63,915 nt of DNA, taken from assembly GCA_035527755.1 (NCBI GenBank), contig DATKZX010000001.1, positions 1 through 63,915 on the forward strand. The letters are read 5' to 3'. This DNA comes from Methanomassiliicoccales archaeon (lineage in GTDB: Archaea; Thermoplasmatota; Thermoplasmata; Methanomassiliicoccales; UBA472). The notes beneath the pieces are model-generated. The model searched no databases and was not told the DNA's origin. It was given only the letters and a program-made list of their open reading frames with translations. A program made the position numbers and the translations under genes. Shown in pieces: positions 38,703-53,460 of this stretch. Numbering within the stretch: the stretch's first letter is position 1; each line of letters opens with the position of its first letter.

Positions 38703-39480
38703 CGCGGCGGCCGCATTCGTCGCGGCGCTGCTTCCCGAACTCCTTCAACCCTTTCAGCTCCTCACCGCTGAACACCGGCCCTTCCTTGCAGACGCGCATT
38801 CCGTCCAGGGCGCAGGACCCGCACAGACCGGCGCCGCATTTCATGTAGCGTTCCAGGGACATCTGGCAAGGGATGTTTTTCTCCAGGCACAGCTGGTGCA
38901 GGAAGTACAGCATCTTTTCCGGACCGCATGCCAGGACCATGTCGTAGTTCCGTTCCTCCATCATCACCTTGGCCAATTGCACGGCGTTGCCGTCGAACCC
39001 TTTGGTGCCGTCATCGGTGGACACGCGCACCAGGGAGGAGGTTCTGGAAGCACGTTCCTCGAACAATAGCTCCTTGACGTTCCTGGCGCCGATGGCGGTG
39101 TCCACCTGGTCGGTCGCCACGCGTTCCATGGCCGGCAGCAAAGAGGCCATTCCAGTCCCCCCGCCGACCACCAGTATCCTGCCTTTGGGCACGTGATAGC
39201 CACGGCCGTATGGACCGCGAACGACGAACTCGTCCCCGACCTTCATGGAGGTGAGCGCTTCCGTGGCCTCTCCCACGTTCTTGACCGTGATGCCTTTCCT
39301 TTCCCCCAGATACGATAAGGACATGGGGACCTCGTCCACGCCCGGTATCCAGACCATGACGAACTGCCCCGGGGCCGCGGGCGCCTCCCAATCGAACCTC
39401 AGGGTGACGACGCCTTCCGCCTCCTCCGTACGGGAGACTACCGATACCGTCGTCTGGCTGACCATGAAACGCTCACTCAT
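38692..39480 (-). CDS. pyrK: Dihydroorotate dehydrogenase electron-transfer subunit
   Basis: A 262-residue FAD and [2Fe-2S] protein of the PyrK family that passes electrons from dihydroorotate dehydrogenase to NAD. FAD-binding RFDWEAPAAPGQFVMVW, NAD-binding ILVVGGGTGMASLLP, and cluster cysteines KCGAGLCGSCALDG plus RVCKEGPVF are seen. Its start overlaps the end of pyrD by 8 bases, so they are co-translated. Confidence 0.93.
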   Translation of the reverse strand: MSERFMVSQTTVSVVSRTEEAEGVVTLRFDWEAPAAPGQFVMVWIPGVDEVPMSLSYLGERKGITVKNVGEATEALTSMKVGDEFVVRGPYGRGYHVPKGRILVVGGGTGMASLLPAMERVATDQVDTAIGARNVKELLFEERASRTSSLVRVSTDDGTKGFDGNAVQLAKVMMEERNYDMVLACGPEKMLYFLHQLCLEKNIPCQMSLERYMKCGAGLCGSCALDGMRVCKEGPVFSGEELKGLKEFGKQRRDECGRRVRL

Positions 39481-45588: not shown

Positions 45589-46133
45589 AGGGCGGCCTCG
45601 ATCACGTCGGAGTATATCGGTCCGGAGGGCGTCAGCACGCTCTTCTTCAGTTTTATCCTGTCCACGGTGAAGGAACCGAACTCCTTGCCCTGGTGGTCCT
45701 GCAGAAATCCTAAAAGGTCCGGCTTGTGGCCTTCACGCACCCTTGCCAATGTAAGATGGGGAGAGAAGGCCCGCTTCTCCCGGGGGAAGCCGAGCGTTCC
45801 ACATCCCTCGTCCAATGAAGATGCCAGCTTGACCAGCGGTTCCGCCCCCTGCATCCCCGCCCAGATGACCCGGGGGCTGCGTGCGTTCGGGAACACCCCG
45901 GTGCCGACCAGACCTATATGGAACGGTGGAGCGTCGGCGACCGCCTGACGCATGACCGCCTCGATCTCAGGCACGATCCTCTCATCCGTATCCCCCAGGA
46001 ACTTCAGCGTGATGTGGACGATGTCGGGCGAGACCGGTTTCAGCGGCCTGCCGTATCCCCTCAGTTCTTCTATCGCCTTTCGAAGCTCCTCGCCGCATCG
46101 GACGTCCACTGCTATGAACGCTCGAAAGCTCAT
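45585..46133 (-). CDS. thpR: RNA 2',3'-cyclic phosphodiesterase (ThpR/LigT family)
   Basis: A 182-residue 2H phosphoesterase with two HxT(L) motifs: H40-T42 (VHITLKFLG) and H126-T128 (SPHLTLARV). These enzymes open 2',3'-cyclic phosphates and in archaea are linked with RNA end and tRNA-splicing chemistry. It overlaps the next gene upstream by 4 bases (co-translated) and the biotin carboxylase tail to tail. Confidence 0.93.
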   Translation of the reverse strand: MSFRAFIAVDVRCGEELRKAIEELRGYGRPLKPVSPDIVHITLKFLGDTDERIVPEIEAVMRQAVADAPPFHIGLVGTGVFPNARSPRVIWAGMQGAEPLVKLASSLDEGCGTLGFPREKRAFSPHLTLARVREGHKPDLLGFLQDHQGKEFGSFTVDRIKLKKSVLTPSGPIYSDVIEAAL

Positions 46134-46699
46134 TCCTCACCCAGGGTCACATGGCATTCCTGGAGCACTTTCTGCGACGCCTCCAGTTCCAGGATGTCGA
46201 TCGTTGGTCTCACCCCGGGAATGATGTAGGGATGCACCTCGGTGAATCCCAGCGTTCCGTAGGCGGAGTACATGCGGTCCTTGAGGTTGGCGTAGAGCTC
46301 GTTCCCCTTGCCATTGCCGCAGGTGAACACGATGATGGCCTTCTTGGTGCCTTTGATCTTGGACGTGTATATCCCCGGTCCGCTGCCGAAGTTCAGCATG
46401 GCGTACATGCGGTCGAGGAACGCTTTCGTCGGGGCGGTCTCGGCTCCGAAATACACCGGGGAGCCGATGACCAATGCCTCGGCGCGCTGTATCTTGTGGT
46501 AGAGCATGGTCATGTCATCCTTGATGGCACAGCCCTCGTTCTTCTTGCAATAGAAGCAACTGATGCAGTCCTTGATCTTCAGATCGCCCAGGTCGAAGTA
46601 ATCCAGGTCGACGTCCTTGTGTTCCTTGGTCAGTTCCTTCAGGAACTTCGCGGTGTTCCCATCCTTGCGCGGACTGCCGTTCAAAGCCAATATCCTCAT
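46130..46699 (-). CDS. Iron-sulfur flavoprotein (NADPH-dependent FMN reductase family)
   Basis: A 189-residue flavodoxin-like protein. The FMN phosphate loop is ALNGSPRKDGNTAKFL, and the compact cysteine motif C45-C48-C51-C57 (CISCFYCKKNEGC) is the Isf-type [4Fe-4S] site. Isf proteins reduce O2, H2O2 or quinone-like acceptors using ferredoxin. It is co-translated with the phosphodiesterase gene, but no functional link is evident. Confidence 0.88.
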   Translation of the reverse strand: MRILALNGSPRKDGNTAKFLKELTKEHKDVDLDYFDLGDLKIKDCISCFYCKKNEGCAIKDDMTMLYHKIQRAEALVIGSPVYFGAETAPTKAFLDRMYAMLNFGSGPGIYTSKIKGTKKAIIVFTCGNGKGNELYANLKDRMYSAYGTLGFTEVHPYIIPGVRPTIDILELEASQKVLQECHVTLGEE

Positions 46700-47021
46700 C
46701 TTGTCTCACCTGGTGAACCACAGAGAAACTACGAAAATAAATAGATTGGCCAGTGCCAGTCTGGGATGGCTGGTTTGGGGAAGGTGTGAAAAGCTCGCCG
46801 TTCTCGATGAGGATTTTCATCTGGTCGGGTCATCGTGCTCGGTTGGCTTACGAACTATCGACCATATGCATTAAATAATTCACCTATTATGCAATCAAAT
46901 GCGTCAAAGACGCAAGCCATCTAGGGTCCATGAAGATCGTCATCGTCTGCAAAACATATATAAAAAAATGTTGAGGAGAATGACCCGATCAGTAGACACC
47001 TAGGACCCTGGGGGATCATTG
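46700..47021 (+). promoter_or_regulatory. Promoter region of the hydrogenase operon
   Basis: This 320-base gap holds no convincing gene. A TATA box ATATATAAAAAAA lies at 46956-46968, so transcription should start near 46990. Upstream at 46900-46914 is an inverted repeat TGCGTC-aaa-GACGCA, about 45 bases before the TATA box, a plausible activator or repressor site. Just before the first gene GAGGAG (46973-46978) precedes ATG 46980, which opens a seven-codon frame ending at 47003. Confidence 0.5.
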
Positions 47022-48227
47022 ATGAACGATAAATGCCTCGCCGCCGTGAAAATTGACCAGGACCTATGCAGCCGATGCGGGGTGTGTTACTCCATCTGTC
47101 CGTTCGATGCCATCGACCGTCAGCCCGATGGCGGCCAGGTGAGCATCGACATTCAGAAGTGCCAGGTCTGCGGGATATGCTACAGCGCCTGTCCGGTGAC
47201 GGCCATCGAGATGGCGTACTACGATTACGAGGGTCTGCTGGACCTTGCCCGCACCACGAACGCTAACGCGGAAACGCTGGTCATGATGTGCAGGGGCAAC
47301 TCACCTAGCAGCGGTGAGGTGGAGGACATACTTGCCAGCCACGGACTTAGCGCCGAGGACCATATCTCCATGCGCATCCCCTGCGCCGGACGGGTGCCTA
47401 CCGACTTCGTCTTCAACGCCCTGCGATCGGGCATAAAGCACATCGTCTCCATCCAATGCCAGGACGGGTTCTGCCGCATGAAGGAGGGGACCATGATCGA
47501 GACCAGGCGCATGCTTCTCGGCATGGCGGTCCTGCGACAGCTCGGTTATCCGGAGGATTCGCTCAAGGTGGTGAAGTATTCCCGGAAGGCCGTCTGGATC
47601 AGCAAGGATTGCGTCGGATGCGGCAAATGCGTCTTCATCTGCCCCTACGACGCCATCACAGCGGAACCGTTCTCCTCGCCCACCGTGGACGTCGAGAAAT
47701 GCGTGGGCTGCGGGGCGTGTCAGATGGTCTGTCCGCAGCACGCCATCCAGGTAAAGGGATACGAGTTCGAGACCGTGCTCGCCGCCTACGGTGAGACGGC
47801 GGTAAAACTGAAGGCCCGAAGCGATCGGCCAACCTTACTGGTCTTCAGCTGCCAATGGTCGGAGTTCTCCGCTCTGGACAACCCTGAGATGCTGCTCAAG
47901 GGCAAGAACGCCTTGATCCTGGAGGTCCCCTGCTTCAAGGGCATGGACCCGGTGCACGTGATCAACGCCTTTCAACAGGGGTTCGATGGGGTCATGGCCG
48001 TGGTATGTTCGGCCGATGATTGCAAGCTAAAGAACGGAAGGGACACCGCGGAAAGGCAGCTGGATGTTCTACAAGTGGCCCTGAAGAAGCTAGGATTGCT
48101 CGATCGGTTCGAGATCCACGAACTGTCACCGAGATGCGAGGGCGAGTTCACCGTGAAGTTCGAGGCGTTCTGCCAGAAGATCGCCGCGATGACGCCAGCC
48201 GCTGGGTCCCCGAAGGAGGTCCAGTGA
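47022..48227 (+). CDS. Hydrogenase-associated iron-sulfur protein with tandem ferredoxin-MvhD modules
   Basis: A 401-residue electron-transfer subunit with a duplicated layout: 2[4Fe-4S] ferredoxin domain (C16, C19, C22, C26; C47, C50, C53, C57), MvhD-like domain (C90, C121, C146, C151), second ferredoxin domain (C197-C207; C227-C237) and second MvhD-like domain (C277, C304, C329, C334). The MvhD cysteines keep the same order in both copies. MvhD normally links F420-nonreducing hydrogenase to HdrA; here no HdrA is present. It opens the hydrogenase operon, and its stop overlaps the next start (TGATG). GGGGATC before ATG 47022 sets the start. Confidence 0.88.
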   Translation: MNDKCLAAVKIDQDLCSRCGVCYSICPFDAIDRQPDGGQVSIDIQKCQVCGICYSACPVTAIEMAYYDYEGLLDLARTTNANAETLVMMCRGNSPSSGEVEDILASHGLSAEDHISMRIPCAGRVPTDFVFNALRSGIKHIVSIQCQDGFCRMKEGTMIETRRMLLGMAVLRQLGYPEDSLKVVKYSRKAVWISKDCVGCGKCVFICPYDAITAEPFSSPTVDVEKCVGCGACQMVCPQHAIQVKGYEFETVLAAYGETAVKLKARSDRPTLLVFSCQWSEFSALDNPEMLLKGKNALILEVPCFKGMDPVHVINAFQQGFDGVMAVVCSADDCKLKNGRDTAERQLDVLQVALKKLGLLDRFEIHELSPRCEGEFTVKFEAFCQKIAAMTPAAGSPKEVQ

Positions 48228-49066
48228 TGTACCGGATAGTGTCCAAGGAACGGCTGGCGCACAAGCAGACGCTGTTCGAGGTCGAGGCCCCGGAAATTGC
48301 GGCAAAAGCTCAGCCAGGGCAGTTCCTGATCGTCATCCCGACCGAGGGAGGCGAGAGGGTGCCCCTCACCATCTGTGATTATGAGGCGGACAAGGGGACG
48401 GTGTCCTTCGCCTTCCATGAGGTGGGCAAGACCACCAAGGAGCTGGGGACGTTCGAGAAGGGCGACCGCCTCTTCAACGTCACCGGACCGCTGGGCAATC
48501 CATCCCAGATCGGAAAATATGGGCGCGTGCTGTGCGTGGGCGGAGGCATAATGATCGCTCCGGTCCTGCTGCAGGCCAAGGCCATGAAGGCGGCCGGGAA
48601 CCACGTGACGACCGTGCTGGGCTCCCGCAGCGAGGAGTTCCTGTTCATGAGGGAGAAGGCCGCGTCATTAAGCGACGAGGTCCACCTGGCCACGGACGAT
48701 GGCTCGGTGGGCGAGAAGGGATTGGAGTTCCTGACGGACCTGCTGAAGAAGGAGAGGTTCGACCGCTGCGTGGTCATGGGACCGGTCGTAATGATGAAGA
48801 TGGTGAGCGAGATCACCAGACCGTTCAATCTACCGACCATAGTGTCCTTGACCCCCATCATGATAGACGGCATGGGCATGTGCGGCGTCTGCCGGGTGAC
48901 GGTGGGCGGGAACATGCTGTTCGGCTGCGTGGACGGCCCGGAGTTCGACGGACACCTGACGAACTTCGACGAGCTCATCAAACGCCAGCGCACCATGCTC
49001 CCGGAGGAGCGATTGAGCTCCATCCTCTGGGAAAACAAAGGGAGGTGCAAGTGTGGAAGGAACTGA
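48227..49066 (+). CDS. NfnA/SudB-like FAD/NAD(P)-binding reductase subunit
   Basis: A 279-residue ferredoxin:NADP reductase-like protein: FAD part with QPGQFLIVIPTEGGERVPLT, nucleotide-binding VLCVGGGIMIAPVLL, and a C-terminal [2Fe-2S] site with C219, C222 and C234 (GMCGVCRV, LFGCVDGPEF). This is the pattern of sulfide dehydrogenase subunit B and of NfnA, the partner of NfnB. Start ATG 48227 overlaps the previous stop. It should exchange electrons between NAD(P)H and the hydrogenase/NfnB parts. Confidence 0.9.
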   Translation: MYRIVSKERLAHKQTLFEVEAPEIAAKAQPGQFLIVIPTEGGERVPLTICDYEADKGTVSFAFHEVGKTTKELGTFEKGDRLFNVTGPLGNPSQIGKYGRVLCVGGGIMIAPVLLQAKAMKAAGNHVTTVLGSRSEEFLFMREKAASLSDEVHLATDDGSVGEKGLEFLTDLLKKERFDRCVVMGPVVMMKMVSEITRPFNLPTIVSLTPIMIDGMGMCGVCRVTVGGNMLFGCVDGPEFDGHLTNFDELIKRQRTMLPEERLSSILWENKGRCKCGRN

Positions 49067-50498
49067 GGAGAAGACCGCATCCAACCCCATGAACGTGGAC
49101 GTGGAGATGCCCAGGCAGAGGCCCAAGGAACGGGTCAAGAACTTCAAGGAGGTCGCTCTGGGCTACACGGAAGAGATGGCGATCCAGGAGGCCCGGCGGT
49201 GCATGCAGTGCAAGAACCCCCCGTGCATAAAGGGCTGTCCGGTGGACGTACCGATCCCCAGTTTCATAGACTGCATCTTACAGGGCAAGTATGCCGAGGG
49301 CATAGCTGTCATCAAGACCAAGAACTCACTGCCGGCCGTTTGCGGGCGAGTATGCCCCCAGGAAGGGCAGTGTCAGATGAACTGCGTCCGGGGCAAGAAG
49401 GGCGACCCGGTCAACATCGGCCGATTGGAGCGGTTCCTGGCGGATTGGGAGCGGGAACATGGGGCCCAGATACCGGAGAGAACCCCTTCCACCGGCAAGA
49501 AGATAGCGGTGATCGGCGGAGGTCCAGCGGGATTGACGGCCGCTGCCGACCTGGTGAAAATGGGTCATGCGGTGACCCTGTTCGAAGCGCTGCACGTGGC
49601 CGGAGGCGTTCTCAGCTACGGCATACCGGAGTTCCGTTTGCCCAAGGACATCGTGCAGAAGGAGATCGAGTACGTCCAGAAGCTGGGCGTGGACCTTCGG
49701 CTGGGCAATCTCATCGGCCGGATCCACACCATACCCGAGCTTATGGAACAGGGCTACCATGCCATCTTCATCAGCAGCGGGGCAGGGCTGCCGCAGTGGA
49801 CCGGCTGCCCGGGCGAGAACCTGGGCGGCATCTACTCGGCCAACGAGTTCCTGATACGGGTCAATTTAATGAAAGCGTACAATTTCCCGGAGCAGGACAC
49901 GCCCATCCGCATAGGCAAGCACGTCGTGGTCATCGGCGGAGGGAACGTGGCCATGGACTGCGCCCGCATCTCGATGAGGTTGGGGGCCAAGGTCTGCTTG
50001 AACTACCGGCGCTCCCGGACGGAGCTGCCGGCCAGGCGCGAGGAGATCGAGAACGCCGAGGAGGAGGGGCTGATGTGCAACTTCCTCAACGCCCCCGCCG
50101 AGTTCTATGGTGACGAGAAGGGCTGGGTCAGGTCCATGAGGTGCACCTGCATGGAGCTGACCGAATCGGATGAAAAAGGACGACAGGGGGTCAAGCCCAT
50201 CGCCTGTTCCGATTTCGAGGTGGATGCCGACACCATCATCGTGGCCATCGGACAGACGCCCAATCCCATCATCCAGCGCACCACCGCCGGGTTGAAGACC
50301 GATCCCCGGAACGGGACCATCATCGTCGACGAGGACGGACGGACCAACCTGGACGGAGTGTTCGCCGGCGGAGACGTGGCCACCGGGGCGGCCACGGTCA
50401 TCAGCGCCATGGGGGCCGGAAAACGTGCCGCTAAGGCCATGCACGAGTATCTCATGAACGAAGGACCGAGGGGGGAGCGACCATCGACCGGAAACTGA
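49053..50498 (+). CDS. NfnB/SudA/GltD-like NADPH oxidoreductase subunit
   Basis: A 481-residue flavoprotein of the glutamate synthase small-chain type. The N-terminal cysteine clusters CMQCKNPPCIKGCP and VCGRVCPQEGQCQMNC bind two [4Fe-4S]; the FAD loop VIGGGPAGLTAAADL and NADPH loop VIGGGNVAMDCAR follow. Next to an NfnA-like gene and hydrogenase subunits it is more likely NfnB (electron-bifurcating FAD) or SudA than true glutamate synthase, since no large chain is near. It starts with GTG, overlapping the preceding gene by 14 bases. Confidence 0.9.
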   Translation: MEGTEEKTASNPMNVDVEMPRQRPKERVKNFKEVALGYTEEMAIQEARRCMQCKNPPCIKGCPVDVPIPSFIDCILQGKYAEGIAVIKTKNSLPAVCGRVCPQEGQCQMNCVRGKKGDPVNIGRLERFLADWEREHGAQIPERTPSTGKKIAVIGGGPAGLTAAADLVKMGHAVTLFEALHVAGGVLSYGIPEFRLPKDIVQKEIEYVQKLGVDLRLGNLIGRIHTIPELMEQGYHAIFISSGAGLPQWTGCPGENLGGIYSANEFLIRVNLMKAYNFPEQDTPIRIGKHVVVIGGGNVAMDCARISMRLGAKVCLNYRRSRTELPARREEIENAEEEGLMCNFLNAPAEFYGDEKGWVRSMRCTCMELTESDEKGRQGVKPIACSDFEVDADTIIVAIGQTPNPIIQRTTAGLKTDPRNGTIIVDEDGRTNLDGVFAGGDVATGAATVISAMGAGKRAAKAMHEYLMNEGPRGERPSTGN

Positions 50499-51460
50499 GG
50501 ATCGCTTTCTACTGGGCCGCCAGCTGCGGCGGCTGCGAGATCGCCGTTCTGGACGTGAACGAGAAGATACTCGATCTTGTGGAGCACGCGGACATCGTCT
50601 TCTGGCCGGTGGCCATGGACATCAAGTATGACGACGTCGAGGCGATGCCTGACGGCCACATCGACGTCACCTTCTTCAACGGCTCGATCCGCAACAGCGA
50701 ACAGGAGCATATGGCCAAGCTCCTCCGCGCCAAATCCCGGACCCTGATCGCCTTCGGTTCATGCGCCAACGAGGGTTCCATACCCGGGCTGGCGAACCTG
50801 AGTGACGCTGACAGCATACTGAAGCTCGTCTACCAGGACCTGGGAGAGGGAACGAAGGACAAGGTCATTCCCAGACCGGAATCGAAGGTGAAGGAAGGGG
50901 TACTGAGCATACCGACCTTCTATGACACCGTCAGAACGTTGGCTCAGACCGTGGAGGTAGATTATTACCTACCTGGCTGCCCGCCGCCGGTCTCCCTGAT
51001 AAACAAAGCATTGGAAGCTATCGTGAAGGGCGAGCTGCCCCCCAAAGGTTCCGTCCTGGCGCCATTGCCGGCGGTGTGCGATGAATGCCCGCGCAAGCGG
51101 GAGAACAAGAAGATCACCACCATCCACCGCGTGCACGAGGTGGTCCCGGACCCGGAGCGCTGCCTGATGGAGCAGGGGATCATCTGCATGGGGATGGCCA
51201 CCCGCAGCGGATGCGGAGCGCAATGCCTCAAGGTGAACATGCCCTGCACCGGCTGCGGCGGGGCTACACCCAACCAATCGGACATGGGCACGGGAATGAT
51301 CACGGCCCTGGCCTCCATATTGAACCTGGACAAGGAACCGGGGTCCTACACCGAAGAGGAAGTGGTGGACCTCATATCGCAGATCAAGGACCCGGTGGGC
51401 ATCTTCTACATGTACAGCCTGCCGTCGTCCATCCTGCAAAGAAAGGTGATGAAGAAATGA
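50483..51460 (+). CDS. [NiFe]-hydrogenase small subunit, group 3 (MvhG-like), with non-canonical start
   Basis: About 325 residues. The reading frame clearly includes IAFYWAASCGGCEIAVLD from 50501, the proximal-cluster motif (C15, C18), yet between the upstream in-frame stop at 50432 and 50555 there is no ATG, GTG or TTG. The best start is ATC at 50483, five bases after GGGGGAG. A start at the GTG 50555 would delete the cluster ligands. C-terminal cysteines (CDECP, GCGAQC, CTGCGG) bind further clusters. It overlaps the NfnB-like gene and the large subunit gene. Confidence 0.88.
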   Translation: MDRKLRIAFYWAASCGGCEIAVLDVNEKILDLVEHADIVFWPVAMDIKYDDVEAMPDGHIDVTFFNGSIRNSEQEHMAKLLRAKSRTLIAFGSCANEGSIPGLANLSDADSILKLVYQDLGEGTKDKVIPRPESKVKEGVLSIPTFYDTVRTLAQTVEVDYYLPGCPPPVSLINKALEAIVKGELPPKGSVLAPLPAVCDECPRKRENKKITTIHRVHEVVPDPERCLMEQGIICMGMATRSGCGAQCLKVNMPCTGCGGATPNQSDMGTGMITALASILNLDKEPGSYTEEEVVDLISQIKDPVGIFYMYSLPSSILQRKVMKK

Positions 51461-52908
51461 AGGAGATCAAGATCGACCCTATCACCAGACTGGAAGGGCA
51501 CGGCAGCGTGTCCATCTTCCTCAATGACCAAGGCGAGGTGGAGAACGCCTACCTCAAGGTCCCTGAGCTGAGAGGCTTCGAGGCCTTCTGCGTCGGACGC
51601 CCGGCCGAACTTATGCCCATCCTCACCACCCGTATCTGCGGGGTATGCCCGGTGGCCCATCATTACGCTTCGGTGAAGGCCTTGGACGCGGCCTTCCAGG
51701 TCGAACCCCCTTCAGCGGCGAAGAAGCTGCGGGAGCTGCAGTACATGGGCTATATCTCCTATGACCACACCCTGCACTTCTATTATCTGGGGGGACCGGA
51801 CTTCATCGTGGGTCCGGACGCCCCGCCGGAGAAGCGGAACATCCTGGGCGTCATCGAGAAAGCGGGTCTGGACGTGGCGAAGGAGGTTATCAAGCACCGC
51901 GCCTACGGGCAAAAGATAACCGAGATCATCGGGGGCAAGGCCACCCATCCGGTCAGCGGATTGCCGGGCGGAGTGAGCAAGCCTCTCGGCGAGGAGGACC
52001 GGGTCTCCATCCTGGAGATGTCGAGATCTTTGGTCAAGTTCGCCCAGTTCTCCCTGCAGCTCTTCAACGACCTGGTGCTTGACAATTCCAAGTACCTGGA
52101 GATGATCAAGAGCGAGGCCTTCACCCAGAGGACCTATTATATGGGCATGGTGGACGCCAGGAACCGGGTCAACTTCTTTGACGGCGAGGTCCGAGTGGTC
52201 GATCCTTCGGGGAAGGAGTTCGTCAAGTTCAGGGCGGAGGACTATGCCCAGCACATCGAGGAAAGGTCGGAGGAATGGACATACTCCAAGTTCCCCTTCC
52301 TGAAGAAGATCGGCTGGAAGGGTTTCACCGACGGAGCTGGCAACGGTATCTACAGGGTAGGTCCCCTGGGGCGGCTCAACGCCGCGGACGGGATGGCCAC
52401 GCCTCTGGCCCAGGCGGAGTACGAGAGGATGTTCGGTATGCTGGGCAAGCCGGCCCACGGCACCCTGGTGTTCCATTGGGCGCGGTTGATCGAACTGCTC
52501 TACGCCGCCGAGCGCGCGGTGGAGCTGGCCAGCGATCCGGAGATAACCAGCACTGACGTTCGCAACATGCCAGGGAAGCCGGGCGAGGGCGTGGGCATCG
52601 TAGAGGCGGCCAGAGGGACGCTGTTCCACCATTACAAACTGGACCAGAACGCGCTGGTCAAGAACGTCAACATGATCGTGGCCACCACCAACAACTACCC
52701 CTCCATCTGCATGAGCATACGCGACGCCGCCAAAGGCCTGATCCATGAGGGAAAGGTCGACGAAGCGATACTGAACAAGGTGGAGATGGCCTTCCGGGCC
52801 TACGACCCATGCTTCGGCTGCGCCACCCACTTCGCGGTCGGTCAGATGCCCCTGGAAGTATTGGTCTATGATAAGAACGAAAATTTGCTTAGCAGGACGT
52901 CACGCTAG
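51457..52908 (+). CDS. [NiFe]-hydrogenase large subunit, group 3 (MvhA-like)
   Basis: A 483-residue catalytic subunit. L1 ligands are C61 and C64 (RICGVCPVAHH) and L2 ligands C452 and C455 (DPCFGCATH). The 25 residues after H458 are the C-terminal peptide removed by a maturation protease, whose gene follows. N-terminal IDPITRLEGHG and RGFEAFCVGRP place it near the Mvh-type soluble hydrogenases (group 3c/3b). Its ATG overlaps the small-subunit stop (ATGA). Confidence 0.95.
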   Translation: MKEIKIDPITRLEGHGSVSIFLNDQGEVENAYLKVPELRGFEAFCVGRPAELMPILTTRICGVCPVAHHYASVKALDAAFQVEPPSAAKKLRELQYMGYISYDHTLHFYYLGGPDFIVGPDAPPEKRNILGVIEKAGLDVAKEVIKHRAYGQKITEIIGGKATHPVSGLPGGVSKPLGEEDRVSILEMSRSLVKFAQFSLQLFNDLVLDNSKYLEMIKSEAFTQRTYYMGMVDARNRVNFFDGEVRVVDPSGKEFVKFRAEDYAQHIEERSEEWTYSKFPFLKKIGWKGFTDGAGNGIYRVGPLGRLNAADGMATPLAQAEYERMFGMLGKPAHGTLVFHWARLIELLYAAERAVELASDPEITSTDVRNMPGKPGEGVGIVEAARGTLFHHYKLDQNALVKNVNMIVATTNNYPSICMSIRDAAKGLIHEGKVDEAILNKVEMAFRAYDPCFGCATHFAVGQMPLEVLVYDKNENLLSRTSR

Positions 52909-52920
52909 GCGGATAGCCAA

Positions 52921-52929
52921 CCTTTTTTC
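52921..52929 (+). terminator. T-run after the hydrogenase large subunit gene
   Basis: CCTTTTTTCC lies 12 bases after the large-subunit stop and 16 before the protease ATG. It may cause partial termination, giving fewer transcripts for the protease than for the structural subunits, or simply overlap that gene's own promoter. Confidence 0.35.
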
Positions 52930-52944
52930 CTTGGTTCGCATATC

Positions 52945-53460
52945 ATGTTCAGGCGGTCGCACCAATTGAAAGAGCACACCCGGGAATTGGAAGATGAACT
53001 GCGGACCTGGCTGGGGGACGCGACCAGCGTCGTCGTGGCCGGAGTGGGGAACGCCATCCGCCTGGACGATTATATCGGGGTAAGAGTGGTGGAGGACCTG
53101 CACGGCAAGGTGTCGGAGAAGGTGCATCTCATCGAGTGCGAGACGGTACCGGAGAGCTTCGTGGACGAGATCATCGAGGTCTGTCCCTCCCACGTGCTGC
53201 TCGTCGACGCCGCCGTTCTGGGATTGAGACCGGGGACGGCCCACCTGTACGACGCCGAGGAAGTGATGAACGTCTCTACCATCTCCACGCACACTCTGCC
53301 GCTGAGGGTGTTCTGCGAGTATGTCGTGAAGCTGACGGGAGCGAGGATCGCCCTGCTGCTCATCGAACCGAAGGACACGGACTTCGGCGAGGGACTGACC
53401 CCTGAGATCGAAGCGGCCGCGTCCAGGGTAGAGGCCGCCCTTCAGGACCATCTGCCTTGA
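52945..53460 (+). CDS. Hydrogenase maturation protease (HycI/HyaD family)
   Basis: A 171-residue endopeptidase that trims the large subunit C-terminus after nickel insertion. Family motif VVVAGVGNAIRLDDYIGVRV supplies the first metal-binding residue region, and LLVDAAVLGLRPG plus STHTLPLRVF the others (including the conserved His). It sits 36 bases after the large subunit. A 40-residue N-terminal extension (RRSHQLKEHTRELEDELRTW) is longer than usual. Confidence 0.92.
   Translation: MFRRSHQLKEHTRELEDELRTWLGDATSVVVAGVGNAIRLDDYIGVRVVEDLHGKVSEKVHLIECETVPESFVDEIIEVCPSHVLLVDAAVLGLRPGTAHLYDAEEVMNVSTISTHTLPLRVFCEYVVKLTGARIALLLIEPKDTDFGEGLTPEIEAAASRVEAALQDHLP

Follow-up and report, generated by a model that had tools for sequence, protein, structure and literature searches.

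The contig DATKZX010000001.1 of a Methanomassiliicoccales archaeon (GCA_035527755.1), analysed here over a stretch of 63,915 nucleotides (the window), carries an operon of six genes (A to F; 47022-53460, + strand) that appears to encode one enzyme, in which a Mvh-type (group 3c) [NiFe]-hydrogenase would be combined with a doubled adaptor and a bifurcating Nfn module. Such a hydrogenase-adaptor-Nfn enzyme probably couples H2 to nicotinamide adenine dinucleotide phosphate (NADP(H)) and ferredoxin in some way. The form of coupling that is favoured here, at just under an even chance as judged from the sequences, places H2 in the position of nicotinamide adenine dinucleotide (NAD(H)) of a bifurcating Nfn, i.e., H2 + reduced ferredoxin + 2 NADP+ <-> 2 NADPH + oxidised ferredoxin. 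This operon combines components of Mvh-Hdr and of Nfn, both of them bifurcating systems that have been studied well, and judged by its genes the whole is neither a Mvh-Hdr complex nor a plain Nfn, being composed of a group 3c-like hydrogenase and an Nfn flavoprotein. We infer the formation of the complex, its electron path and its reaction from the gene products as predicted.

Genes A to E overlap pairwise, while gene F follows 36 nucleotides after gene E. An earlier note on this DNA had described six genes on one strand, the first five overlapping, had named their products and had stated that HdrA is not among them; its coordinates and names are confirmed, the latter by scans of the operon proteins against Pfam and NCBIfam, in which bit scores were compared with family cut-offs. 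None of the six proteins scans as HdrA, HdrB or HdrC in these searches, and NuoE- or NuoF-like domains are not listed for any of them. The host genome (1.68 Mb in 26 contigs, 99.7% complete, with one mcrA) possesses a second hydrogenase locus on another contig (C8), with the order HdrA-MvhD-MvhG-MvhA (mvhDGA-hdrA), which rules out a genome without Hdr. A large-subunit family search of the host returned two [NiFe] large subunits above the cut-off, i.e., that of gene E and the C8 copy, together with one weak match below it. According to the available portions of the literature on the Methanomassiliicoccales, a long HdrA adjoins mvhDGA in this order. Because the host has a separate mvhDGA-hdrA locus, one hydrogenase copy appears to be dedicated to Nfn.

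The hydrogenase part is represented by genes D, E and F. Gene E (51457-52908, +; 483 residues) encodes a group 3c-type [NiFe]-hydrogenase large subunit with the motifs RICGVC and DPCFGCATH, whose best NCBIfam match is VhuA (440 bits, under the cut-off of 800), as compared to 124 bits for HydA. Gene D (50483-51460, +) encodes an MvhG-type small subunit with VhuG as its best NCBIfam match (212 bits, under the cut-off of 450), and all 12 of its cysteines are common, in an alignment, to the canonical MvhG of the same genome. Gene F (52945-53460, +; 171 residues) specifies a HycI-type hydrogenase maturation protease (100 bits to TIGR00072, cut-off 47). A large-subunit tree was computed from 85 of 119 kept sequences, rows that spanned fewer than 380 query residues, contained stops or were identical having been left out; the method was a quick one with Shimodaira-Hasegawa-like approximate likelihood ratio support only, and the groups were typed by gene context rather than by a curated set. 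In this tree, the 16 operon rows constitute one clade (support 100), which is nested among Bathyarchaeia (support of 99 for the 25 rows together), far from the canonical MvhA of the order and from the HydABCSL-like and 3b-like (n=4) rows. The tree and the HydA and VhuA scores rule out a group 3b (sulfhydrogenase) identity, and the operon hydrogenase is, by its sequence, MvhA/MvhG-like and of group 3c. The MvhD subunit that is expected of this group is present in altered form, as two domains fused to ferredoxins.

The start of gene D is unusual. Because its reading frame contains no ATG, GTG or TTG from the upstream stop to the first cluster motif, a non-canonical start is proposed, the likely one being ATC at 50483 behind GGGGGGAG, with which the protein would comprise 325 residues. 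Across 16 genomes, the start codon of the small-subunit gene seems to be ATC or ATA, preceded by a G-rich ribosome site, in twelve (window 50483-50485, and L071, L072, L076-L082, L085 and L086), while eight (the window, L072, L076, L077, L079, L080, L084 and L085) have no in-frame ATG, GTG or TTG from the upstream stop to the first cluster motif. The small-subunit relatives from Bathyarchaeia exhibit an ATG near the corresponding place in six of the seven that were checked.

The adaptor is the predicted product of gene A (47022-48227, +; 401 residues), in which a 2[4Fe-4S] ferredoxin domain followed by an MvhD [2Fe-2S] domain occurs twice. Family scans located Fer4 in four stretches and FlpD/MvhD in two, and the domains can be delimited, all on the + strand, as ferredoxin domain 1 (47043..47216, about residues 8-65), MvhD domain 1 (47274..47576, about residues 85-185), ferredoxin domain 2 (47589..47756, about residues 190-245) and MvhD domain 2 (47823..48197, residues 268-392). 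The protein contains 24 cluster-type cysteines, of which 16 are located in the ferredoxin domains (16, 19, 22, 26, 47, 50, 53, 57, 197, 200, 203, 207, 227, 230, 233 and 237) and eight in the MvhD domains (90, 121, 146, 151, 277, 304, 329 and 334). As none of the 24 varies in any of the 28 aligned homologues, whose identities go down to 33%, the protein is expected to hold four [4Fe-4S] and two [2Fe-2S] clusters. A structural model of A built from 13 sequences was poor (mean predicted local distance difference test score, pLDDT, 66), while one built from 28 sequences attained a pLDDT of 84 and a predicted template modelling score of 0.82. MvhD domain 2 of the model matches 5odc_D, the MvhD of the Hdr-Mvh complex, with Z 12.6 and a root mean square deviation of 2.5 over 124 residues. 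A fold search with this model returned MvhD matches (Z 12.3 to 12.9) and ferredoxins; it returned no full-length match, an absence to which no evidential weight is given. Furthermore, the second half of A (residues 193-392) resembles the C-terminal ferredoxin-MvhD part of HdrA2 (163 bits).

Gene B (48227-49066, +; 279 residues) encodes NfnA, the subunit of the a-type flavin adenine dinucleotide (a-FAD) and the Asp-ligated [2Fe-2S] cluster. It scores 354 bits to PRK06222 (cut-off 220) and 44 bits to HydG, identifying it as an Nfn/DHODB-type FAD/NAD subunit, and it possesses ERVPLT and DGxGMCGxCRx10CV, in accordance with the published ERxPxT and DGTGMCGxCRx10CV except for a small departure, Met for Thr, in the [2Fe-2S] motif. 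Met109 (codon 48551..48553, +) replaces the conserved glycine of the NAD-binding GGGxG loop. Where an adaptor gene is adjacent, this position is occupied by a residue other than glycine in 28 of 28 distinct sequences (27 Met, 1 Trp); where there is none, it is glycine in 16 of 16, including L173. Each distinct NfnA sequence entered the count once, that of the window (also Met) is not among them, and L086 does not extend over the position. NfnA of T. maritima and both NfnA proteins of P. furiosus have glycine at the aligned position, as do two Bathyarchaeota loci (L253, L261) in which nfnA-nfnB is located behind a thioredoxin-reductase-like gene (recognized by eye) with no adaptor between. When the 28 Met-type rows are set against 13 others, position 109 is Met versus Gly and positions 114-116 are LLQ versus YPI, and positions 37, 102, 129, 130, 181, 203, 209, 230 and 233 differ as well. 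In the FNR family, this glycine sits in the dinucleotide-binding loop, and Met109 should for that reason weaken or block the binding of NAD(H) by NfnA. The earlier note had presumed an ordinary, NAD(H)-using Nfn; the altered loop suggests instead a hydrogenase that has moved into the NAD(H) position.

Gene C (49053-50498, +; 481 residues, GTG start) encodes NfnB, the b-FAD subunit with two [4Fe-4S] cluster motifs (603 bits to TIGR01316, GltA/NfnB, cut-off 472). The sequence carries RCx2Cx4Cx3CPV and GRVCPQExQCx3C, with a spacing before Gx2ER of 11 residues instead of 13, as in NfnI of P. furiosus, and the motifs GGGNVA and YRRSR are, at the motif level, of the NADP type. Arg195 (codon 49635..49637, +) aligns with an arginine of T. 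maritima NfnB that we take to be Arg187 and to have a role in bifurcation; it is Arg in 64 of 64 aligned matches. L074 and L077 are covered by the tblastn comparison that underlies the NfnB motifs. In the available text of PMC6405883, a conserved arginine is located at N5 of the b-FAD of Nfn. The bifurcation motifs of NfnB are kept; the earlier note had drawn on the fact that NfnAB carries a bifurcating flavin of its own.

These motifs bear on the possibility that the enzyme is a plain H2:NADP+ oxidoreductase, akin to those of group 3b, in which Nfn would serve just as an FAD/NADP module and no bifurcation would occur. This would be the simplest biosynthetic use of H2, and it fits the NADP-type motif of NfnB and the absence from the order of npdG, the gene for F420H2:NADP+ oxidoreductase. 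It is nevertheless judged improbable. The sequences retain the motifs tied to bifurcation, namely Arg195, the Asp-ligated [2Fe-2S] motif and the cluster motif with CPQE; moreover, without bifurcation there would be no need for NfnA, or for an adaptor whose ligand sets would serve four [4Fe-4S] and two [2Fe-2S] clusters.

In the mechanism proposed here, MvhAG would split H2 and the electrons would flow via the clusters of MvhG to the adaptor, through whose [2Fe-2S] and [4Fe-4S] clusters they would reach NfnA with its [2Fe-2S] cluster and a-FAD, the side on which an ordinary Nfn handles NAD(H). In NfnB, the bifurcating b-FAD would serve NADP(H), and the distal [4Fe-4S] cluster would serve soluble ferredoxin. 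The reaction would probably proceed toward NADPH in this methanogen, which belongs to an order without the F420H2:NADP+ enzyme. As described for Nfn in the text available of PMC6405883, NADPH reacts at b-FAD and NAD(H) at a-FAD, while for ferredoxin a binding site close to the distal [4Fe-4S] cluster is predicted. The same portion of that source gives -370 mV for NADPH and -513 and -718 mV for the low-potential clusters, and the accessible part of PMC9304861 gives about -280 mV for NAD+/NADH; the H+/H2 couple lies, by our Nernst estimate, near -296 mV at about 10 Pa H2. Since this last value is near that of NAD+/NADH and above that of NADPH, H2 could replace NADH at little energetic cost. H2 is assigned to the high-potential seat because the NADP and cluster arms are intact, the NAD arm is altered and the H+/H2 couple lies near NAD+/NADH.

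Two other positions of the hydrogenase on Nfn may be envisaged. It could stand in the place of ferredoxin, with the adaptor docked at the distal [4Fe-4S] cluster of NfnB and NAD(H) still active at NfnA, in the reaction H2 + NADH + 2 NADP+ <-> 2 NADPH + NAD+ + H+, an arrangement with which the predicted ferredoxin site near that cluster, the ferredoxin domains that make up half of the adaptor, and the retention of DDGSVGxKG and other NfnA positions would all agree. However, at low H2 pressure H2 is poorly suited as the low-potential partner of clusters at -513 and -718 mV, and the loss of the NAD-loop glycine in 28 of 28 adaptor-linked NfnA sequences would be left unexplained, and we regard this arrangement as unlikely. 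Alternatively, H2 could act as in Mvh-HdrABC and reduce b-FAD by two electrons, which would then bifurcate, one branch leading to ferredoxin and the other to NADP+ or NAD+. The precedent is that of Hdr-Mvh, in which, according to the literature as far as available, electrons from H2 pass via MvhD and a ferredoxin domain to the bifurcating FAD, and the likeness of the second half of A to HdrA2 is in line with it. The clusters of very low potential that flank b-FAD on one side could hardly be reduced by H2, though, and NfnB, in which b-FAD is fed by NADP(H), retains an intact NADP motif; this second arrangement is considered very improbable.

The relatives of gene E in the species-genome collection are informative as to how the operon may have arisen. 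From the best 80 of 573 confirmed stretches, which include many from Bathyarchaeota (up to 77%) as well as Thermoplasmatota, Methanofastidiosum, Chloroflexi and others, 31 loci and 50 genomes were derived. Directly upstream of mvhGA, hdrC-hdrB is present in 22 of these 31 Bathyarchaeota and neighbouring loci; two further loci show hdrB up to the contig end, two are cut by contig ends, and in the other five (L105, L125, L126, L129 and L132) no hdrCB was found within 2.6 kb. The queries in this search were HdrC and HdrB of L107, which Pfam classifies as 4Fe-4S dicluster and CCG proteins. The claim in the earlier note that Nfn replaces Hdr stands with respect to most of these relatives; it does not extend to each near relative, L105 for example having no hdrCB in the 7 kb before mvhG.

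Twenty-seven of the 50 genomes are titled Bathyarchaeota, and 15 of these 27 possess a tandem A that is complete or nearly so (in one case divided between two contigs, in another 356 residues long at a contig end). The order A-NfnA-NfnB is found in 14 of the 15 genomes, the 15th being cut by a contig end, and (Fd-MvhD)2-nfnA-nfnB is consequently a Bathyarchaeia cassette. A gene set with a doubled MvhD had been thought isolated; in fact the doubled MvhD is not unique to the host, being present in Bathyarchaeota, in one Hadesarchaea genome (G500; 35% identity, with the contig ending after the gene) and, elsewhere in the phylum, in three genomes (G400, G473 and G162; L184-L186). In the latter three, distant (Fd-MvhD)2 proteins with 33-37% identity are encoded beside MetF-type genes, of which that of L184 matches Pfam MTHFR and that of L186 the methylenetetrahydrofolate reductase domain of PRK08645, while a MetV-like open reading frame of L186 gave no NCBIfam match at 1e-30. 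This neighbourhood suggests that (Fd-MvhD)2 is a reusable adaptor.

Given that both the cassette itself and hdrCB-mvhGA are known from Bathyarchaeia relatives, the operon can be read as that cassette joined to mvhGA-protease, in which Nfn has the position that Hdr holds in most relatives. In Bathyarchaeia, too, the cassette has ties to hydrogenase genes: it is located about 3 kb from mvhGA in L223 and L227, a HypA gene adjoins nfnB in L226, HypD and HypF genes lie within about 6 kb in L221 (the hyp genes by Pfam), and in L233 the cassette is followed by hdrC-hdrB, one open reading frame and a protease gene. In the NfnA tree, the rows of the order are placed beside those of G484 and G480 (99/98), two genomes that also hold near relatives of E (L109 and L105). 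G484 has hdrCB-mvhGA, while G480, a Bathyarchaeota genome, carries mvhG-mvhA-protease alone (L105, 7024-9996) beside chemotaxis-like genes (by eye), with no hdrCB in 7 kb upstream and with the (Fd-MvhD)2-NfnA-NfnB cassette on another contig. The arrangement in G480 is a plausible intermediate, and the cassette and the hydrogenase may have come from one Bathyarchaeia-like source.

The fact that the cassette and mvhGA are apart in most Bathyarchaeia seen, so that their association may be loose or shared, together with the presence of HdrA elsewhere in the host, also leads to a reading in which the six genes are only co-expressed, with a free NfnAB and a hydrogenase that either uses the adaptor as a soluble ferredoxin or is shared with HdrABC. 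This is very unlikely in our estimation, as the overlapping operon occurs in each Methanomassiliicoccales genome where the contig permits, and MvhD is by precedent, in the literature as available, the electron-transfer subunit between hydrogenase and flavoprotein, a role supported by the fold match. Returning to the enzyme with H2 in the seat of NAD(H), it may tentatively be proposed, with a confidence that falls clearly short of even, that the adaptor docks where NADH bound, that such enzymes would make up a separate class of bifurcating enzymes in Bathyarchaeia and Methanomassiliicoccales, that H2 and reduced ferredoxin would confurcate to NADPH, and that one MvhGA would possibly be shared with HdrABC in Bathyarchaeia while a second MvhGA would be dedicated in the methanogen. 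Outside these groups, a Dehalococcoidia contig (L173, 1-9945) displays a row of HdrA (with a GltD-like insert)-HdrA-NfnA-NfnB-MvhD-MvhG-MvhA-protease-like genes.

Within the order, the gene order that the earlier note had proposed to look for was indeed encountered in other genomes, a close orthologue of E being present in 17 of 147 genomes, the window included, which is more than a chance arrangement would give. The other orthologues are 77-89% identical to that of the window, apart from one 122-residue fragment with 98%. By family, 14 of 22 genomes of f1 and three of 15 of f5 carry this orthologue, as opposed to none of the 110 in the rest. Twelve of the 17 have all six genes with A complete, two have six with A cut by a contig end, and three are cut within the set; in one of the cut cases (G139), A was located on another contig. 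For comparison, 129 of the 147 genomes have an MvhA-like match at E <= 1e-30. True NfnA (E <= 1e-50) was detected in 21 genomes, namely the 17 operon genomes, each with a single NfnA at this threshold, and four f1 genomes (G127, G129, G132 and G133) with nfnA elsewhere. The matches in the remaining 109 of 130 NfnA-matching genomes amount to 61 to 106 bits only and are read, by score and size, as PyrK. No npdG was found above the cut-off in any of the 147 genomes, with one partial match below it in G128, while the same search exceeded the cut-off in three of 14 control genomes. This absence makes an H2-fed source of NADPH plausible; as npdG is missing throughout the 147 genomes, there is no contrast that would indicate a trade-off between it and the operon.

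Two of the f1 genomes without a close E orthologue, G133 (L198, 3175-9641) and G132 (L199), carry NfnA and NfnB genes, which in L198 are preceded by NuoF-like and NuoG/molybdopterin-type genes. In families f2 and f3, L087 (3795-8541, G001) and L088 (2041-6877, G004) exhibit a HydABCSL-like set, as recognized by eye, of NuoE/NuoF/NuoG-like genes with those for a [NiFe] small and large subunit.

A number of observations weigh against the assignment of H2 to the NAD(H) seat. The NAD-site motif DDGSVGxKG of NfnA is kept despite Met109, and NAD binding by this subunit may therefore survive. The change from Gly to Met is a single event on the NfnA tree (98/84), which rules out repeated independent loss of the glycine and means that the link between loop and adaptor rests on one event. 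Of 62 NfnA matches, 30 were taken as loci and counted while the remaining 32 stand outside the count, and many of the loci were viewed with 1.5 kb of flank only. Among individual loci, L173 keeps the glycine though an MvhD gene is located downstream of nfnB, and five loci were left unclassed: L252 has Phe109 and, over the 1.5 kb viewed, lacks an MvhD gene; L255 has Met109 with a glutamate dehydrogenase-like gene (by eye) upstream and an HdrA-FdMvhD gene beyond nfnB; L219 (G488:C112), a Bathyarchaeota contig, has HdrA-MvhD followed directly by NfnA-NfnB, with Met109; and L249 and L264 have Met109 at contig ends. To these may be added the separation of the cassette from mvhGA in Bathyarchaeia mentioned above, and the 130 of 147 genomes that have neither the operon nor npdG, in which other sources of NADPH must exist.

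With MvhADG-HdrABC (5ODC) the operon has MvhA, MvhG and MvhD-type parts in common, and by precedent the electrons from H2 reach a bifurcating flavoprotein there by way of MvhD and then a ferredoxin domain; the operon differs in being without HdrA, HdrB and HdrC, in that MvhD is doubled and fused to ferredoxins, and in that the flavoprotein is NfnAB, with a pyridine nucleotide presumably in the role of the heterodisulfide. It shares with NfnAB (T. maritima 4YRY, P. furiosus 5JCA) both subunits, the cluster and FAD motifs, the bifurcation arginine and the NADP-type motif, but is encoded together with a hydrogenase and an MvhD adaptor and has the NAD-loop glycine of NfnA changed to Met. NfnII/Xfn of P. 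furiosus (5VJ7) has no NAD+-dependent activity according to the available text of PMC6405883; its NAD domain differs in other ways, with the glycine aligned with Met109 kept, and that text mentions no hydrogenase partner. The group 3b sulfhydrogenase (HydBGDA) likewise joins a [NiFe]-hydrogenase, an FNR-like flavoprotein and NADP(H), yet 3b-like large subunits are distant in the tree and the NfnA of the operon scores far higher to PRK06222 than to HydG.

Other combinations of such modules are described in the accessible parts of the literature. NiFe-HydABCSL (PMC8880783) is also a bifurcating NiFe hydrogenase, but with a NuoF-type flavoprotein instead of Nfn and MvhD. In type III HdrA of Bathyarchaeota, which occurs with mvhADG, a GltD/NfnB-like module is linked to Mvh, as it is here; the GltD is, however, inserted within a retained HdrA and bears an NAD-type motif, and NfnA goes unmentioned in the portion available (PMC12054007). 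The Stn transhydrogenase (PMC10482914) resembles the operon in that an NfnB-like module has been recombined with other electron-transfer modules, but its Nfn-like part has lost bifurcation, its HydBC-like core bifurcates, and it is not a hydrogenase. HdrA with NfnB-like insertions is known from ANME-1 archaea, with HdrA retained (PMC9012536), and a 2024 survey of 243 Methanomassiliicoccales genomes names, in its available text, mvhADG and hdrABC. In the accessible text returned by searches of an open-licence library, from which most subscription journals are missing, no description of the present gene set was found.

The close relatives show that partner genes have been exchanged beside a group 3c hydrogenase, and the operon presents a possible route from H2 to NADPH in Bathyarchaeia and in methyl-reducing methanogens of an order without the F420H2:NADP+ enzyme. 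If H2 does occupy the place of NAD(H), Met109 could serve to recognize, in metagenomes, Nfn enzymes that have been rewired; the family would then constitute a natural test of how bifurcating flavoenzymes choose their partners.

Upstream of the operon, a putative TATA-like box, TATATAAA, was recognized by eye at 46957..46964 (+), approximately 57 nucleotides before gene A, and Rfam gave no match in the window at gathering scores. A flavodoxin/flavin mononucleotide-reductase-like gene (by eye) is located at 46130-46699 (-), and homologues of it occur near the operon in six related loci. A PyrK-like gene at 38755-39384 (-) is the only other NfnA relative of the host at E <= 1e-15. Elsewhere in the host genome, C2 encodes a 385-residue protein (L038, 7984-9141) that resembles the N-terminal part of HdrA followed by ferredoxin and MvhD, while C7 (L037, 3110-10835) carries a row of fhs-like, HdrA-like, MvhD-like, MetV-like and MetF-like genes, mostly identified by eye, in this methanogen.

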